Origin: a virus
Strand: one strand, 5' to 3'
DNA length: 37,895 nt
IMG/VR virus record: IMGVR_UViG_3300028837_004144
Location: 1-37,895 of that record
Positions 5,139-22,527 of the stretch are shown here, piece by piece. The position numbers and the translations under genes were made by a program. The notes below the pieces were generated by a model, which was not told the DNA's origin, did no database searches, and saw only the letters and a program-made list of their open reading frames with translations. The number at the start of each line of letters is the position of its first letter. Position 1 is the first letter of the stretch.

Positions 5139-5803
5139 AGACAAAAACCAAAAAATCCGCCCCGCGCAAACGCAAGCCCAAGACCAAGGCCGCGGCCAAA
5201 GCCAAGGGCAAAAAACAAACCGGGCCGGCCAAGGCCGAGGCCGGCGGGCGGCCGGTGGGGCATCCCCGGTCCGAAGCGCCCGGACCTACGCTTGTCAAGG
5301 GCACGGCCGCCCTGGCTCAATTGCTCGGCGTGCACCAGACCACCATCAACAGGTGGGTGGCCAAAGGGTTGCCGGTCGCCGGGGCCGACACCTTCGACGT
5401 GGCCGAGGTGCTGGCCTGGCGTGAAGGCCAGGACGGCAAGGGGGGCGGCCAGGGCGGCACCGCCGATGTCGAATTGAAACAATGGCGGGCCAGGCACCTG
5501 CAACTCAAGGTGCTAAAGGACCTCAAGAAACTCATCCCCAGGGGCGAGGCCGAAGCCATTTGGATCCAAACCATCGTCAACGTGCGCACCCGCATGATGG
5601 CCCTGCCCGACCGGGTGGTCTTGCTCGTGCCGGCCAGGCTGCGGGCCGACCTGCGCGTCGAGGTGCAGCACGAGGTTGACCGTATCCTGGGCGAATTGCA
5701 AAACGGTTTTCTTATGCCGGAGATAGAGGAACAAGTCAATGCGTTCATCGAAACCCTTATCCCCCGCGACGAGGATGCCCATGTTGCCGGGGCGGGTGCG
5801 TAG
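5132..5803 (+). CDS. terminase small subunit (Nu1-like)
   Basis: 223 aa. A Lys-rich N-terminal tail (KTKTKKSAPRKRKPKTK) is followed at about residue 55 by a helix-turn-helix of the Nu1 type, TAALAQLLGVHQTTINRWVAKGLPV, and then DVAEVLAWREGQD. The central and C-terminal parts are helical (ELKQWRARHLQLKVLKDLKK) and end before the large subunit. In lambda-like phages this protein binds cos and recruits the motor. The open frame reaches back to 4940 but only through the antisense of the DUF5131 gene, so I chose TTG 5132; the ribosome site there is weak and the start is uncertain. It overlaps the large subunit gene by 65 nt. Confidence 0.75.
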   Translation: MTKTKTKKSAPRKRKPKTKAAAKAKGKKQTGPAKAEAGGRPVGHPRSEAPGPTLVKGTAALAQLLGVHQTTINRWVAKGLPVAGADTFDVAEVLAWREGQDGKGGGQGGTADVELKQWRARHLQLKVLKDLKKLIPRGEAEAIWIQTIVNVRTRMMALPDRVVLLVPARLRADLRVEVQHEVDRILGELQNGFLMPEIEEQVNAFIETLIPRDEDAHVAGAGA

Positions 5804-7757
5804 ACTCTGGCAGCCGCCCGAGCGCATGACGGCCGCCGAGTGGGTACCGCGGTGGGTGCGTCTGCCCGCGACCGTGGCGGCGATTCCCGGCCGGTGGTCG
5901 GCCGACCTTTTCCCATACTGCACAGGGGTGCTCGATGCCTGGTGTGACCCGTACATCGAGCAGATTGTATTGGAGTGGGGGTCACAGTTGGGCAAGACCA
6001 CCCTGATCGCCTGCCTCGCGCTGTACGTGGCCGACCAGGACCCCGGCCCCATGCTCTTGGCCTCAAGCGTGCAGTCGAGCGTCAAGGAACTGGTGAGCCT
6101 GCGCCTGTATCCCATGCTTGAGGCGTGTGACCGCACCAGGGAACTCTTGCCGCCCAAGCACCTGCAAGATGATTACCTGGTCTCCCTAACGACCATGCTC
6201 ATCTACACCGGATGGTCCGGCAGCGCCACGCGGATGGGCGAGAAAAGCATCCGGTACGTGATGATGACGGAATTAGATAAGTGGGCCATCCGCACGAGTC
6301 TTGAGGCCGACCCCGAACATCTGGCCGGCGAGCGCCGCAAGGCGTTTCCCAACTTCAAGATACTCAAAGAGTCCACGCCGACCATTGAGGGCCTGTCACG
6401 CATTCACTCGGCCTACCAGGCCAGCGACCGGCGCCGCTTCCACGTGCCATGTTCCAAATGCGGCGCCTATCAGGTACTGGACCGGGCCAACGTATGGTGG
6501 CCCCACACCCAGGAGGGCAAGAGCGTGGCGCCCGCCGAGGTGCGCGACGTGGCCCTTTACGTCTGCCCCCATTGCAACGGGCGCCTTGAGGACTATCAGA
6601 AACCCCGCCAATTGCGCGCGGGCCTCTGGCTCCCCGAAGGCGTGACGGCCACCGTGATCCGCCACCGGAAAAAGGCGCGGCGGCGCGACGTGGTTTGGGG
6701 CCGCCCGCCCAAGTGGCCGGCCAGGCCGTGGCTCACCAAAGGCGTCAAGTGGAAATGGGACCTCTTTGAGTACCGGCTGGCCGGCGAGCCGGCCAAGACC
6801 ACGCGCACGGCCGGCTACCACCTCGGCAGCCTCTACTCGCCGCTACTGACCTATGGCCATTATGCAGAAAAGTGGCTTGACTCCCAGGACGACCCGGCGG
6901 CCTTGCAGAACTTTATCAACGGGTGGGATGCCAAGCCCTGGCGGCTGTCGGTCTCGATGCCAGCGGCCGAGGAACTGGGCGAGCAACTCAAGACCGGCCA
7001 CGAACCGGGCACAGTGCCCAAGGGGGCCGTGATGTTGACCGCCGGCGTGGACCCCGCCGAGCATGTGATAAACTACGTCGTGCGCGCCTGGGCCAAGGAT
7101 GGCACCAGTTGGCTCATCGAGCACGGTGTGGTCGAATGGTCCAGAGACCTGCATACCGTCTACAACGCCATCATCGAACCGGCGTGGACGGTCGAGGGCG
7201 GCGGCACGATGGCCGTCCATTGCTGCGGCATCGACACCGGGTGGCAAGCCGGCGTGTGCTATGAGTTTTGCGTCCGGCAGGGCGATCGGGTGCGCGGTCT
7301 CAAGGGCCATGGGACGGTCGGCAGCGTGTGGAAACCCCTGCGCGTGGACGTGAATCCGGAAAGCGGCAAGGTCTACAAGCGCGGTCTGGTGGTGTGGGTG
7401 ATTGATTCGGGATATTGGAAAGACCAGATACATCATCGCTGGGGTCTCGACTCCGAAAGCCCAGGCAGTTGGAACCTGCACGCCGAACCGAGCCGGCCGT
7501 ACCTTCGACAGTTGGTGGCCGAGGTCAAGAGCAAGGTGACCGACAGGACCGGCCACGAAAAATTGCAATGGGTGGTGGTGGACCGCGGGGCCGGCTCGCA
7601 CTATCTCGACGCCGAGGTCTACGCCATGGCCGTAGCCTACATGAAAGGGATTGGCCGCGTGGCCAGGACCCGGCGCCGGCCCGGCCGGGGCAAGGGCGGG
7701 GCGGCCCATACGATGCGCCGGTTGCGGATGCACCGGGGGCATGGACGGAAAGGGTGA
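5739..7757 (+). CDS. terminase large subunit (lambda gpA family)
   Basis: 672 aa motor and nuclease of DNA packaging. WGSQLGKTTLI near residue 85 is the Walker A loop. RYVMMTELDKW near residue 175 is the Walker B position, with Thr where most relatives have Asp; the catalytic Glu is kept. FHVPCSKCGAYQ and the later CPHCNGRL resemble the zinc-like cysteine pairs of gpA. LTAGVDPAEHVINYVVRAW marks the start of the nuclease domain with its Asp. The C-terminus is very basic (RTRRRPGRGK). GGAG and AGAGGAA precede the ATG at 5739; ATG 5781 is an alternative. The family implies a lambda-like packaging mechanism, usually cos-cutting. Confidence 0.93.
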   Translation: MRSSKPLSPATRMPMLPGRVRRLWQPPERMTAAEWVPRWVRLPATVAAIPGRWSADLFPYCTGVLDAWCDPYIEQIVLEWGSQLGKTTLIACLALYVADQDPGPMLLASSVQSSVKELVSLRLYPMLEACDRTRELLPPKHLQDDYLVSLTTMLIYTGWSGSATRMGEKSIRYVMMTELDKWAIRTSLEADPEHLAGERRKAFPNFKILKESTPTIEGLSRIHSAYQASDRRRFHVPCSKCGAYQVLDRANVWWPHTQEGKSVAPAEVRDVALYVCPHCNGRLEDYQKPRQLRAGLWLPEGVTATVIRHRKKARRRDVVWGRPPKWPARPWLTKGVKWKWDLFEYRLAGEPAKTTRTAGYHLGSLYSPLLTYGHYAEKWLDSQDDPAALQNFINGWDAKPWRLSVSMPAAEELGEQLKTGHEPGTVPKGAVMLTAGVDPAEHVINYVVRAWAKDGTSWLIEHGVVEWSRDLHTVYNAIIEPAWTVEGGGTMAVHCCGIDTGWQAGVCYEFCVRQGDRVRGLKGHGTVGSVWKPLRVDVNPESGKVYKRGLVVWVIDSGYWKDQIHHRWGLDSESPGSWNLHAEPSRPYLRQLVAEVKSKVTDRTGHEKLQWVVVDRGAGSHYLDAEVYAMAVAYMKGIGRVARTRRRPGRGKGGAAHTMRRLRMHRGHGRKG

Positions 7758-15352: not shown

Positions 15353-16459
15353 ATGGCATACGCATTGTGCTGTTATTACGGGGGTGGCGGGGCCGAGGCG
15401 TGTTTGCTCTGTGTGCCGGACTCGACGCCCGGCGCTGGCGGGGCCGCCCTGGTCGCCGACCTCAAGATTTTGGCCGACCGCATCGGTCCCTGCAAATACG
15501 ACGCTACCGCAGCGCCCACCGCCGATGATGACGAGAATGACGGCTATCGGGTGGGTTCCCGGTGGTTCAACCTCACCACCCAGGACGAGTATATCTGCAT
15601 CGACGCCACGGCCACGGCGGCCGTGTGGATAGCAACAACCCTTGCGCCGGGCAGTGTGGGTACCTCGGACCTGGCCGACCTGGCCGTGACCACGGCCAAG
15701 TTGGCCGCCGGCGCCGTGACCGTCGCCAAGATTGCGCCCTTCGGCGAGGGTGAAACCTTGCTCTTTGGGTGCGGGTGTTGCGGCATCATCCATGGTTGCG
15801 ATGATGCCGGTACGCCGTACCTGTCCATTGCCCACCCCACCCGGCTCTGCCTTGAGACCGGCTGCATCATTACGGCCGGCAGCATTTGCGCCGGCCCGAT
15901 CGTCAGGGGTACCTGCCTCGTGGCGGCCGAGGCCGTGGTCGCCGGCACCTGCGCGCACGCCAAGTTGGTGTTTGCCTCGTGCTGCGGCATCGTGGGGTGT
16001 TCCGATTTCGCCGCGCTGCCGGCCGGGTGCCTTTGCACCACCAAGGCCGAGTTGGATTCGACCTATTACAATGCCGAGATGGCCTTTCTCAAATCTGAAG
16101 CCAACTGCATGTATCTGATGTGCGTCAGGGCCTGCGGGGGCCCCGCACAACTGCAAGTCAACTGGTCGGACGGTGTGGGTCTGGCCAATCTGGGCAAACT
16201 GATTGTCGGCGAGTGCTTACAGGGCGGGTGTCAGGTGGAATCGCCCTTGCTCACAGTTACATGCGGGAACGTCGATTGCAACCTGGTGGTGGGCGAAGCC
16301 ATCACGGCCGGATTGCTCAGCGCCTGCGCTGTTGTGGGTGGCGAACAACTGCTGGTGCCTGGCAACCAATGCGAGGTGACCCGCAATATGTATTGGGATG
16401 GCACCGACCTGATGGTCTATACCGGCGCCGCCTGGGTGTGCTTCTGCCAGAAATCCTAA
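15353..16459 (+). CDS. cysteine-rich fibre-like structural protein
   Basis: 368 aa with about 31 cysteines, in pairs or clusters throughout (ALCCYY, CLLC, FGCGCCG, SCCGIVGC, CLC, CFC). The N-terminal third has DGYRVGSRWFNLTTQDEYICID and LADLAVTTAKLAAGAVTVAKIAPF, typical of fibre or appendage proteins (x-T-x-KLA-GAVT repeats). The C-terminus NMYWDGTDLMVYTGAAWV is also fibre-like. The middle is beta-rich with regularly placed cysteines (GCIITAGSICAGPIVRGTCL), suggesting a beta-helix with stacked Cys. Neighbours in the structural operon are Cys-poor, so this is specific. Ligand or disulfide role is unknown. ATG 15353 follows AGGGGC. Confidence 0.7.
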   Translation: MAYALCCYYGGGGAEACLLCVPDSTPGAGGAALVADLKILADRIGPCKYDATAAPTADDDENDGYRVGSRWFNLTTQDEYICIDATATAAVWIATTLAPGSVGTSDLADLAVTTAKLAAGAVTVAKIAPFGEGETLLFGCGCCGIIHGCDDAGTPYLSIAHPTRLCLETGCIITAGSICAGPIVRGTCLVAAEAVVAGTCAHAKLVFASCCGIVGCSDFAALPAGCLCTTKAELDSTYYNAEMAFLKSEANCMYLMCVRACGGPAQLQVNWSDGVGLANLGKLIVGECLQGGCQVESPLLTVTCGNVDCNLVVGEAITAGLLSACAVVGGEQLLVPGNQCEVTRNMYWDGTDLMVYTGAAWVCFCQKS

Positions 16460-18257: not shown

Positions 18258-18770
18258 ATGACCGAACCCGACGGCTGCCTGCACACGCCGATGACCACCT
18301 TGCGGACGATGCTGTCAACCGTGGCCGCCTGGCAGACCTGGTGCAACGTGCCCGACGCCGCGGCGGCCTTGCTCCGGATCCACCGCATGGTTGTGGAAAT
18401 CACCGGCGGCGAGACCGGCGACGATGCCGTACCCTTCCCGTTTGCCGTGGTGGGCATGGGTGACCGATGGGAGAGTGAAGCGGTGGCCCAGGGGGCCACG
18501 GCCGATATGTACGTTGAGACGGGTTCGGTGTTCCTGGCGTTTGAGGACGTGCTGGCCCAAGAGGAAACCGACCGCGACGGCCTGACGCGGTTTGTCAATA
18601 ATGTATCTGCTGTGCTCGATGGCCTGCGCGCGATTTCCGGGCAGGGCGCCAACCTCAACATCGTCCGCATCATGCAGCGGGACCCGCCGGGCCTGTTTGC
18701 CGAAGCGAAACACCAGACGCGGCCGGCCCGCGGCGTGCAGGCCGCCTACCTGATTGAGTGGGGACCGTGA
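18258..18770 (+). CDS. hypothetical protein, tail-completion candidate
   Basis: 170 aa. Starts MTEPDGCLHTPMTTLRTML; contains VVEITGGETGDDAVPFPFAVVG and ADMYVETGSVFLAFEDVL, a strand-rich pattern seen in tail terminator or completion proteins. It lies three bases after the connector candidate and overlaps the next gene as TGATG. Function assigned only by position between connector and tail-tube genes. Confidence 0.5.
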   Translation: MTEPDGCLHTPMTTLRTMLSTVAAWQTWCNVPDAAAALLRIHRMVVEITGGETGDDAVPFPFAVVGMGDRWESEAVAQGATADMYVETGSVFLAFEDVLAQEETDRDGLTRFVNNVSAVLDGLRAISGQGANLNIVRIMQRDPPGLFAEAKHQTRPARGVQAAYLIEWGP

Positions 18771-19255
18771 TGCCGGTTGTGATCCGAACGCGCATCGACT
18801 ACGTGGCGCCCGCCGGCATCACCGCCCGCCGCCTGCCGCGGCACGTCAAGCAAAGCCTGCAAGCGGCCGGCATCCTCTGGCATGACAAGATGCTGCCGCG
18901 TCACTTTCAGAGTTACGCCTCGGCCAAATACGGCTACAAGCACCGGGCCGCGTGGTACAGGGAGCAAAAGCAAGCCGGCATGGGTCCGGCCGCCACCGAC
19001 CGGCCCCTGGTGTGGTCGGGGGACACCGAACGGCAGGCCACCAGCAGCGCCCGCATCGGCGGCACGAGCAAGCGCCTGCGGGTGACCATGGACGTGCCGT
19101 TTTATTTCGGCATTCAGTCGGCCAGCCGGCCGGACCTGGTGGCCGAGTTGATTGCCTGGACCGCGGCCGAGGGCCTGCACCTGGCACGGTTTGTTTCAGC
19201 CGACCTGGCGGCGCGCCTTGCGGCCGAGAGCACCCGCACAAGTGTGACCGTTTAG
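18770..19255 (+). CDS. hypothetical protein, head-tail joining candidate
   Basis: 161 aa. Contains LPRHVKQSLQAAGILWHDKMLPRHFQSYASAKYGYKHRAAWY, a basic aromatic segment like that of small tail-completion (gp10/gpZ-type) proteins. The C-terminal half has VTMDVPFYFGIQSASRPDLVAELIAWTAAEG. Start at ATG 18770, overlapping the previous TGA; a GTG at 18758 is possible. Function inferred from position. Confidence 0.5.
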   Translation: MPVVIRTRIDYVAPAGITARRLPRHVKQSLQAAGILWHDKMLPRHFQSYASAKYGYKHRAAWYREQKQAGMGPAATDRPLVWSGDTERQATSSARIGGTSKRLRVTMDVPFYFGIQSASRPDLVAELIAWTAAEGLHLARFVSADLAARLAAESTRTSVTV

Positions 19256-19271: not shown

Positions 19272-20186
19272 ATGAATCTCTACACCCTCTATCTCTTGCA
19301 GCACAGCACCGATGACCTGGGCGGTGTGACCGACTTCGGCCTGCCCCCCGGCATCCGCGAAATCATGCTCGGCGCCGACGGGCAGGTGGACCCGACCTTT
19401 GCCGCCGTCATCGACCAGGCGCCTACCCTGCGGTGGACCTCGCGGGCCATTCAGGCGCATCTCGACCTGATTGGGCAGGACGGCCTGGCCGTCAGCGCCA
19501 CCCCGCTGACCGCGTGGCTGCGCCGCAACACCGCGCAGGGGGTCCGGGCCACCGGCTCGGTGCACACCAAAATGGAAATCAACCTCGGCCTGGCCGTGCC
19601 CCGGCAAATCCGGGCGGCCCACAACGACCCCAACGGGGCGACCATCGACTATGAGTGTATCATTCTGCATGACGGCACGAATGACCCGGTGGTCATCACC
19701 GAAGCCCAGGCACTGCCGGCCTCGGATGACGAAGGCGTGCAGCAGGTGTTCACGTGCGGCCAGGTGTCGCTCAACGGCACCGAGGTCAACGGCGTGCAGG
19801 AAATCATCGTGGACTTTGGCATACAGGTGAGCACCCAGGGCGAAAAGGGCCTGGTGTGGCCGACCTACGCCGGCATCATCAGCCGGCAGCCGCGCATCAC
19901 CATCCGGGTGCTCGACCCCGACGTGTGGGCCGACCTCGGCATCAGCGGCCAGGTGCAGGCCGCGACCGACAGCGAAATCTATCTCCGCAAGGTCTCCGCC
20001 GGCGGCACGCGCGTGATCGAGGCCACCTCCGAGCATATCAAACTGTCGATGAATGCGGGCCGGCACTTTGTCGATGACGTGTCGGGCCGGCACGCGGATT
20101 GGGTGACCGGCAGCCTGGTGCTTACGCCCCTTGAGGAAGCCACCACGGCGCCCCTGGTCATTGACACCGCCTGCGCGATTACATAG
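19272..20186 (+). CDS. tail tube protein candidate
   Basis: 304 aa. Strand-rich throughout, with VHTKMEINLGLAVPRQIRAAHND, IDYECIILHDGTNDPVVITEAQALPA, VNGVQEIIVDFGIQVSTQGEKGLVWPTYAGIISRQPRITIRV. This fits a two-layer tail-tube or major tail protein, and the place just upstream of the tail chaperone and tape measure supports it. GAAAGGGCG precedes the ATG at 19272. I do not recall a specific family match. Confidence 0.6.
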   Translation: MNLYTLYLLQHSTDDLGGVTDFGLPPGIREIMLGADGQVDPTFAAVIDQAPTLRWTSRAIQAHLDLIGQDGLAVSATPLTAWLRRNTAQGVRATGSVHTKMEINLGLAVPRQIRAAHNDPNGATIDYECIILHDGTNDPVVITEAQALPASDDEGVQQVFTCGQVSLNGTEVNGVQEIIVDFGIQVSTQGEKGLVWPTYAGIISRQPRITIRVLDPDVWADLGISGQVQAATDSEIYLRKVSAGGTRVIEATSEHIKLSMNAGRHFVDDVSGRHADWVTGSLVLTPLEEATTAPLVIDTACAIT

Positions 20187-20215: not shown

Positions 20216-20950
20216 ATGAGCGCCTTTCTGTATTGGGTACCGGGTGAATCGACCGGCGGCCCCAAGATGGTCGAGGCCGCCGGCCTCTCCCACGTCTTTG
20301 ACAGGAGCGCCGGCGTGGCCGTATGCAGCAAAGGGCCGGACGGGGTCGGCGGGGCCATTCTGGCGCGCGGCAACCTGGGCGGCAAACACGGTTACTATCC
20401 GGACGTCCAAGAATGGCAAAAGGTGGCCGGCCAGTGGCTTGGGTGGCCCAAGGATAATCCGCCCGGCCCCGATGACCTGGTGCGCGATACCCTGGTCGAT
20501 GGGTGGGACACGGAACTGGCCGACGGCAATGCGTGGGTGGTGCCCGTGGTCCGGGTCTTTCCCAAGGGTACGCGCCTGCCGCAGACCATGGTGCTCGGCC
20601 CCGCCGGCCAATGGGTTGGCCAGGTGCGCGAGGAGTTTGTTGACTTGTGCCAGGCGGTGGGCGTGGCGTGGGATTTCTTTTTCGCGGCCCCCCACGTCGC
20701 CGACCCGGCGGCCGGATTCGAGGGCAGGGTCATCACCCTGCCCGACGCGGCCGACCTGGCGGTCCGGGGATTGACCCTCAACTACCGCGTCGGCCGGCGC
20801 GAGGTGTCGGCCCTGCGCCTGTTAGATGACAAGATGGTCGGGCGGGTCATCGGCGCCATGTTCGACCTGCCGGCCGTGATCCGCGCGGCCGAGGCCGTGG
20901 CCGCCGCCCAGGCCGATGGAAAAAAAGGGGGTGCCCCGACTACCGCATGA
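20216..20950 (+). CDS. tail assembly chaperone, short form (gpG-like)
   Basis: 244 aa. Position between tail tube and tape measure is that of lambda G. C-terminal half is helical (KMVGRVIGAMFDLPAVIRAAEAVAAAQ) and the gene ends in GGA AAA AAA GGG, a slippery run. The upstream part carries mixed strands (WVVPVVRVFPKGTRLP). The short form ends at TGA 20948-20950. A -1 shift at the slippery run gives the long form ending at 21030. I base the chaperone assignment on gene order and the recoding signal; sequence similarity alone is not clear. Confidence 0.72.
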   Translation: MSAFLYWVPGESTGGPKMVEAAGLSHVFDRSAGVAVCSKGPDGVGGAILARGNLGGKHGYYPDVQEWQKVAGQWLGWPKDNPPGPDDLVRDTLVDGWDTELADGNAWVVPVVRVFPKGTRLPQTMVLGPAGQWVGQVREEFVDLCQAVGVAWDFFFAAPHVADPAAGFEGRVITLPDAADLAVRGLTLNYRVGRREVSALRLLDDKMVGRVIGAMFDLPAVIRAAEAVAAAQADGKKGGAPTTA

Positions 20951-20976
20951 TGGTTCACACCATGTGGCGGTCGGGG
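20920..20976 (+). promoter_or_regulatory. programmed -1 frameshift signal
   Basis: Slippery heptamer A_AAA_AAA at 20920-20926 in the zero frame (GGA AAA AAA). A spacer of seven bases (GGGGGTG) is followed by a stem: CCCCGAC at 20934-20940 pairs perfectly with GTCGGGG at 20970-20976. Inside the loop a second hairpin forms (ATGGT 20950-20954 with ACCAT 20959-20963). Slip site, spacer length and downstream structure all match the usual -1 frameshift design. Confidence 0.85.
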
Positions 20977-21030
20977 CTGCTGCCCGACTACGTACCAACC
21001 TTTGCCGATGTTTATTGGCTTGCGTTGTAG
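20926..21030 (+). CDS. tail chaperone frameshift extension (gpT-like)
   Basis: Reading in the -1 frame from 20926 gives 34 codons without a stop up to TAG at 21028-21030, adding RGCPDYRMMVHTMWRSG and then LLPDYVPTFADVYWLAL to the first 237 residues of the chaperone, for a 271-aa long form. The tail is hydrophobic and aromatic. An ATG at 20947 overlapping the TGA could also start it independently as 27 aa, but the slippery site makes fusion likelier. It ends nine bases before the tape measure gene, as in lambda G-T. Confidence 0.78.
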   Translation, partial: RGCPDYRMMVHTMWRSGLLPDYVPTFADVYWLAL

Positions 21031-21039
21031 GGGCCTGTC

Positions 21040-22527
21040 ATGGCCAAGGTGATTTTTGAGATGGACGCGAAGGCCGAGCGTGTGGTGCGCGCGTACATGG
21101 CCGTCCATGAGGCGCAGAAAAAGACCGAGACCGGCGCCCGCCGCCTCGGCCAGACCACCAAAGAGACCGGCAGGCAATCACGCGAAGCAACCCGCGGCAT
21201 GGGCAGCGACCTTGGGGGCCTGGCCCTGCGCTACGTGTCTTTGAGCGCCATCGCCACGACCGGCATCATGGCCATTCGGAAAGCCTGGCAGGATGTTGAA
21301 CAGGCGGCGCGTGAGGCCCTTGAGGCCCAGGTACCGGCCGGGCAAGCCTGGTCGCGGTTCCTCTTGAACATGCCGGCCGGGTGGGACGCCCAGGGCATGG
21401 AGCAATGGGCCGAACGGATGCAGGCCACCACCGGCATGACCAAGGCCCGCCTGGCCGACCTGATGCAAGGTGTTAGCGCCAAGGGCGCCCTTGCCCAGCG
21501 CCCCACCCTGGCCGCCGCCGAGGTGGCCGCCACCATCGAACGCCTGGCCGGCGAGGGCTACCTGTCACCGGAAGCCCTCTCCGGCTTCTTTGCCGTTGCC
21601 AACCTGGCCGGGGCCAAGACCAAAGAGGACGTGATGAACACCGTGGGGTGGTCCCTGGCCTTGCAGCGCCGGGCCAAGGTCATCGAGCCGACCGCCATGC
21701 TGGCCACGATGCCGCGGGCCGTGACCGCCATGCAGCAAGCCGGCTTTGCCCCGGAAGAAGGCGGCCGCCTTTGGGCCACCATCACCCAGGTGGTCGAGGA
21801 TTACGAGGGCCGGCGAAGCGCCATGGCGGTGGCCGAGTTTGCCAAGACCATCCGCACCAAGGCGATCCTGCCCGAGCGCCGCGGCCGGTGGGGCATGATA
21901 CCGGAGACGATGACCGACGTTGCGGACGTGCTCGATTTGATGGGAGAGCGCTACCAGGCGGCCGCCCCGACCGTCCGGGGCCAGATGTTGCGGCGCGTCG
22001 GCGGCGGCGCCCGGTTGCAGCAATTCCTGATGGGATGGTGGCAGGGACCGGAAGGCCGGGCGCAGGCCGAGTGGCAGGCCACCGGCGGGTTGCCGGCGCC
22101 GCTTGCGCCCGAGGCCGGCCGTTTCTTCACCGATTGGTTGGGCCGGGCCAAGGCCGGCCGCGAGGCCCCGCTGGTCGAAGCGCAGGCATTCGCCACGGGC
22201 GCCGTGGACCTGGCCAGGCGCGCCAACGTACCGGCCGCCCAATATGCCCTGGTCACCAAGACCCTTGAGGAAATGGACCGGGCGGCCGGCGTCAACTGGA
22301 TCGACCGCACGGGCCGGGCCTTGACCCGCGCGGTGGACTATCATATCTTCGGAGTGGAACCGCAAGATATTGCGATGCGCGAAGCCGGCGGCCGCCTGCG
22401 CCGAGGATGGACTCCGGGAGCGGAATCGTCTTGGGCCGCGCTGATTAAAGCCCTGCAAGACAACACCGAGGTCGTGCGCGAGACTCTGGCCGGCGTGCCG
22501 GCCAGACCGATAACCGAGAGCGACTAA
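21040..22527 (+). CDS. tape measure protein
   Basis: 495 aa. N-terminal coiled-coil segment (KAERVVRAYMAVHEAQKKTETGARRLGQTTKETGRQ) followed by a hydrophobic stretch (LGGLALRYVSLSAIATTGIMAI) and Ala-rich helices throughout, with many aromatic-capped turns (FMGWWQGPEG). This and its place directly after the frameshifted chaperone identify the tape measure. It is short for the class; using the rule of thumb of about 0.15 nm per residue a tail of some 75 nm would be expected. GTAGGGG precedes the ATG. Confidence 0.8.
   Translation: MAKVIFEMDAKAERVVRAYMAVHEAQKKTETGARRLGQTTKETGRQSREATRGMGSDLGGLALRYVSLSAIATTGIMAIRKAWQDVEQAAREALEAQVPAGQAWSRFLLNMPAGWDAQGMEQWAERMQATTGMTKARLADLMQGVSAKGALAQRPTLAAAEVAATIERLAGEGYLSPEALSGFFAVANLAGAKTKEDVMNTVGWSLALQRRAKVIEPTAMLATMPRAVTAMQQAGFAPEEGGRLWATITQVVEDYEGRRSAMAVAEFAKTIRTKAILPERRGRWGMIPETMTDVADVLDLMGERYQAAAPTVRGQMLRRVGGGARLQQFLMGWWQGPEGRAQAEWQATGGLPAPLAPEAGRFFTDWLGRAKAGREAPLVEAQAFATGAVDLARRANVPAAQYALVTKTLEEMDRAAGVNWIDRTGRALTRAVDYHIFGVEPQDIAMREAGGRLRRGWTPGAESSWAALIKALQDNTEVVRETLAGVPARPITESD

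Follow-up and report, generated by a model that had tools for sequence, protein, structure and literature searches.

A tail chaperone-like gene of an uncultured siphophage with a predicted -1 frameshift site, and candidate transcriptional slippage among its relatives

The window analysed here is a single stretch of 37,895 bases of viral DNA. In its tail region a gene that we call G is located directly downstream of the gene of the major tail tube protein, and its 3' end is overlapped by an open -1 frame, T, whose fusion to G is called GT (Table 1). The tail tube protein was predicted by AF2 with a pLDDT of 92.3 and gave Z scores (VIA) of 17.5 against the tail tube of P74-26 and 17.4 against that of T5, over 264-268 residues. 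It shares the duplicated fold of T5 pb6 and P74-26 at about 6-11% identity, and two tandem tube domains as in these phages make trimeric rings likely; on the mechanism of the chaperone this comparison is uninformative. In the initial annotation the -1 frame ended just before the tape measure. The next large open reading frame does begin there, but it gave no family match and is called tape-measure protein solely for its position and size. In most relatives an open reading frame of such size (436-733 aa) is found at the same place after T. Further upstream in the window, a cysteine-rich open reading frame of 368 aa (15353-16459) lies downstream of the capsid genes.

Table 1. Features of the tail region around gene G (positions in the window).
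Feature	Position	Strand	Details
Major tail tube protein	19272..20186	+	304 aa; tube domain in two tandem copies (T5 pb6 / P74-26 type)
Gene G, tail assembly chaperone-like	20216..20950	+	244 aa; zero frame, TGA at 20948-20950
Slippery heptamer A_AAA_AAA	20920..20926	+	In G frame, read as GG[A AAA AAA]G
Spacer	20927..20932	+	6 nt
Putative stimulatory hairpin	20933..20977	+	MFE -32.6 kcal/mol, z -5.84
Outer stem of hairpin	20933-20941/20969-20977	+	9 bp, one G-U pair
Inner helix of hairpin	20943-20949/20961-20967	+	7 bp
T extension, -1 frame	20926..21030	+	34 codons + stop; from translation, HMM and T-domain alignment
Next large open reading frame	21040..22527	+	495 aa; assigned as tape-measure protein from position and size only

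The fold of the G protein is predicted confidently (pLDDT 92.5). No convincing match to G was found in Pfam, PHROG and NCBIfam, and none of confidence to its fold in the PDB. The best viral fold match, in BFVD, is annotated as 'Tail assembly chaperone' (probability 1.00, E 5.3e-3), a weak match with TM 0.29/0.49. From the gene position, the recoding described below and this fold match we infer that G/GT is a lambda-G/GT-like tail chaperone of a siphophage. As in lambda, a single gene between the tail tube and tape-measure genes would give two products through a -1 shift close to the 3' end of G; in contrast to lambda, no sequence similarity of G to known families of chaperones could be detected. 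By analogy with lambda, the predicted role of G is to coat the tape measure and that of GT is to bring in tail tube subunits, and the two would be made in a fixed ratio.

Recoding of tail chaperone genes is textbook ribosomal frameshifting. The heptamer near the end of G, correctly placed in frame by the initial annotation, follows the X_XXY_YYZ pattern of programmed -1 ribosomal frameshifting, and its run of seven A's is shorter than the A or T runs of about nine or more that go with programmed transcriptional slippage. It is the sole A7 in the window when both strands are scanned, but since chance alone predicts about one, the heptamer by itself is weak evidence. The downstream stem lies within the distance of about 5-9 nt that is characteristic of ribosomal -1 sites. 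The initial annotation had counted a spacer of seven bases and a stem of 7 bp (20934-20940 with 20970-20976), both of which are corrected in Table 1, while the inner hairpin that it described could be confirmed. None of 200 shuffles matched the stability of the window hairpin, which is the most extreme among 53 junctions compared. The hairpin overlaps codons of T, and coding constraint could account for part of the stem.

With the window G as single query no relative was detected in viral contigs, and four different G queries gave zero matches in cultured phages. The first relatives were obtained via the neighbouring genes, where homologues of G and T were recognised, and an alignment of these first G relatives, used as query, yielded a large family, with members in both viral contigs and genomes and about 25-40% identity to the window G. 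Prophage-like loci of this family are present in Planctomycetota genomes, and the family was found in 2-3% of the sampled genomes from the phylum of the Planctomycetota genome (loci L141-L159). Among the genomes sampled from the class of the Methylophaga genome and from the phylum of the Armatimonadota genome, it was found only in the one already known in each case. G belongs to an unrecognised family of putative chaperones for which Pfam, PHROG and NCBIfam hold no model, and annotation pipelines would miss its members. Two loci differ in their gene arrangement. In L034, a homologue (5801-6283) of the 165-aa protein that precedes the tail tube gene in the window (18758-19255) is placed after G/T, a change of gene order, and in L145, G ends an open frame of more than 700 codons (up to 2190) and is perhaps fused to an upstream tail gene.

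Translated from 20926 to the stop at 21030, the -1 frame encodes RGCPDYRMMVHTMWRSGLLPDYVPTFADVYWLAL. The predicted GT fusion therefore has 237 + 34 = 271 aa, which agrees with the initial annotation. A T-domain HMM, built from the peptides of the relatives with the window excluded, hit the -1 frame of the window with an E-value of 1.8e-12, the next of the 891 window ORFs being at 0.063. Relatives of the extension do exist, in difference to the initial annotation, which named no similarity for it: the motif W..GL.P.Y.PT.ADL is conserved across the 62 T domains aligned and worn in a few relatives (e.g., L146-L149), and T is about 35-55 aa long in the family. Of 69 distinct junctions, 68 continue past the slip site with a motif-related peptide in the -1 frame. 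The lone exception is L020, with A10 and the T motif in the +1 frame. An in-frame fusion of G and T was found at none of the 69 loci. A chance A-run in front of a meaningless open -1 frame would fit the one A7 expected in the window, but the E-value obtained without the window and the motif kept across the aligned T domains leave practically no probability for it.

T could also be produced without any fusion, as a small separate peptide. In the window, GCATGATGG puts an ATG (20947-20949) across the stop codon of G (ATGA, 20947-20950), which would allow stop-start coupling. However, many relatives have no ATG (M) in T ahead of the conserved motif, and both the A-tract junction and an uninterrupted -1 frame have been kept; this route to T was rejected as very improbable. 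The -1 extension conserved in nearly all junctions and the position after the tail tube gene strongly support, at the level of sequence, a -1 recoding that gives a predicted tail chaperone of 271 aa in the window. The same observations speak for the lambda G/GT logic proposed in the initial annotation.

The 69 junctions comprise 58 sites with A9, five with A10, one with A8, three with A7 and two with GGGAAAN. The window stem is not conserved in the first relatives, and its absence together with their A-runs led to the recognition of the A9 pattern. Of the conservation of slip site and stem, which the initial annotation had named as a check, only part was therefore found: the relatives share the recoding, but the majority have A9 without a stem. 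The A9 tracts start evenly in codon phases 0, 1 and 2 (21/21/16, p 0.65), hence tract length is conserved among the relatives while codon phase is not. If seven A's were sufficient, about 12% of sites should have at least two A's beyond these (calculated from a mean A content of 21%), whereas such an excess was observed at 63 of the 67 A-run sites. On the G strand no run of A9 or longer occurs elsewhere in 472 kb of family loci. Downstream structure is not in excess at the A9 sites, and a Shine-Dalgarno-like stimulator upstream of the tract was seen in 7 of 53 junctions (13%) against a background of 7.3%, which is no clear enrichment. It has been argued that a 9A run whose length is conserved in homologs is very likely purposeful transcriptional slippage (Baranov et al., 2005, PMC1088944). 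A fixed length of nine A's in any codon phase, mostly without a stem, is the signature of transcriptional slippage and not of a ribosomal heptamer.

The tract might instead act as a switch by replication slippage, that is, phase variation. Nine-base homopolymers mutate easily, which would favour such a switch. But T is in the -1 frame at all loci except L020 and in-frame G-T fusions are absent, and phase variation was rejected, with a probability even slightly below that of stop-start coupling.

The A7 runs (window, L017 and L036) and the A8 run are all in the phase that yields A_AAA_AAA, and the two GGGAAAN sites (L141 and L153) are in ribosomal phase as well. A stable hairpin begins 4-6 nt downstream of each of the five in-frame heptamer sites (the three A7 and the two GGGAAAN sites). 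An uninterrupted stem of at least 8 bp is present at four of these five, where it measures 9-12 bp, compared to 2 of 63 A9/A10 sites (L039 and L112; Fisher p 9e-5). The fifth, L036, has a stem of 5 + 8 bp with one mismatch, and at the A8 site (L018) a stem of this kind is absent. The heptamer sites are located in different parts of the G tree, in which many branches are weak and L153 is not included. Since related sequences are not independent events, the p values overstate the certainty.

Every A9 includes one in-frame A_AAA_AAA, so that ribosomes could slip at A9 too. All members might then rely solely on ribosomal -1 frameshifting, the known mechanism of lambda-type chaperones (PMC5009743), with A9 as a phase-proof version of the heptamer. 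Seven A's would do in this case and the extra ones would be free, yet nearly all A-run sites have nine or ten; the A9 sites are also without excess structure and Shine-Dalgarno-like motifs are not clearly enriched. We regard an exclusively ribosomal mechanism as rather unlikely, although it is the most serious of the alternatives. The opposite extension, in which the window also uses transcriptional slippage on its A7 and the hairpin is incidental, could draw on the A9 of the relatives and on IS elements of Deinococcus and Nostoc, for which eight A's have been proposed to permit productive slippage (PMC1088944). An A7 is shorter than the reported tract lengths, however, and the window combines a run in ribosomal phase with a hairpin that is canonically spaced and stronger than any other in the set, which makes this explanation improbable.

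We therefore favour, with a probability of roughly 80%, that G/GT of the window would be produced by ribosomal -1 frameshifting and that of most relatives by slippage of RNA polymerase, lineages having switched between the two or kept one; products, ratio and slipping enzyme are deduced here from sequences, frames and their conservation. In the window, most ribosomes would translate G through to its TGA, and a minority would slip back one base on A_AAA_AAA, aided by the hairpin, and append the 34 residues of T. In the A9/A10 relatives, RNA polymerase would slip on the tract and add one A, resulting in a fraction of mRNAs with G and T in one frame. The lineages with heptamer and hairpin (window, L017, L036, L141 and L153) would either have adopted ribosomal slippage or retained it. 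The two mechanisms were probably exchanged more than once in the family, as between dnaX of E. coli and Thermus.

The dnaX genes are a close parallel for such an exchange: Thermus thermophilus dnaX is the classic case of transcriptional slippage on A9 (PMC5009743, PMC1088944), whereas E. coli dnaX uses A_AAA_AAG and ribosomal frameshifting (PMC5009743, PMC3711429, PMC1088944). As in the G family, homologous genes give two products by either route, but dnaX is a DNA polymerase gene and no phage tail gene. In IS elements, tracts of 8-10 A's join orfA and orfB, and tract and frame relation are conserved for a fusion product as in G/T (PMC1088944); these are transposases, however, without a part in structural assembly. 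Among tail chaperone genes, that of SPP1 also has a homopolymer-type slip site (UUUUUUC, -1), at which ribosomal frameshifting is predicted to give gp17.5 and gp17.5* (PMC6316719). The 297-aa gp17.5* has only 112 N-terminal aa in common with gp17.5 (PMC6316719), an extension far longer than T of the G family. For lambda, the likeness extends to the slip site in two relatives only, L141 and L153. The lambda site resembles the GGGAAAN type that these two carry, in difference to the A_AAA_AAA, 6-nt spacer and hairpin of the window and to most family members, which have A9 and no structure.

If most members indeed slip in transcription, the ratio of G to GT can be determined at the level of RNA. 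The family would then offer a rare opportunity to compare both mechanisms at work on one gene, and it would hold a natural replacement of one recoding level by another under the same ratio constraint. It appears fairly likely to us that a widespread uncultured siphophage/prophage family, with several members in Planctomycetota, sets this ratio by slippage of RNA polymerase on A9 and that several of its lineages swapped to ribosomal frameshifting with heptamer and hairpin. Transcriptional slippage in tail chaperones was not reported in the literature searched, which included few subscription journals. What is new is a family with candidate transcriptional slippage in tail assembly and candidate repeated switching, the predicted frameshift of the window itself being of a known kind.

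A few junctions show further peculiarities. All five A10 tracts (L020, L046, L047, L117 and L156) begin in codon phase 1. No slip site was seen in L137, L150, L158 and L159. Two related G genes, L068 (4700-4760) and L070 (4540-4620), have T in the -1 frame without an A-run or clear heptamer; both carry a GGCGGCC/GGCCGCC hairpin, and L068 in addition has C_CCC_CCG.
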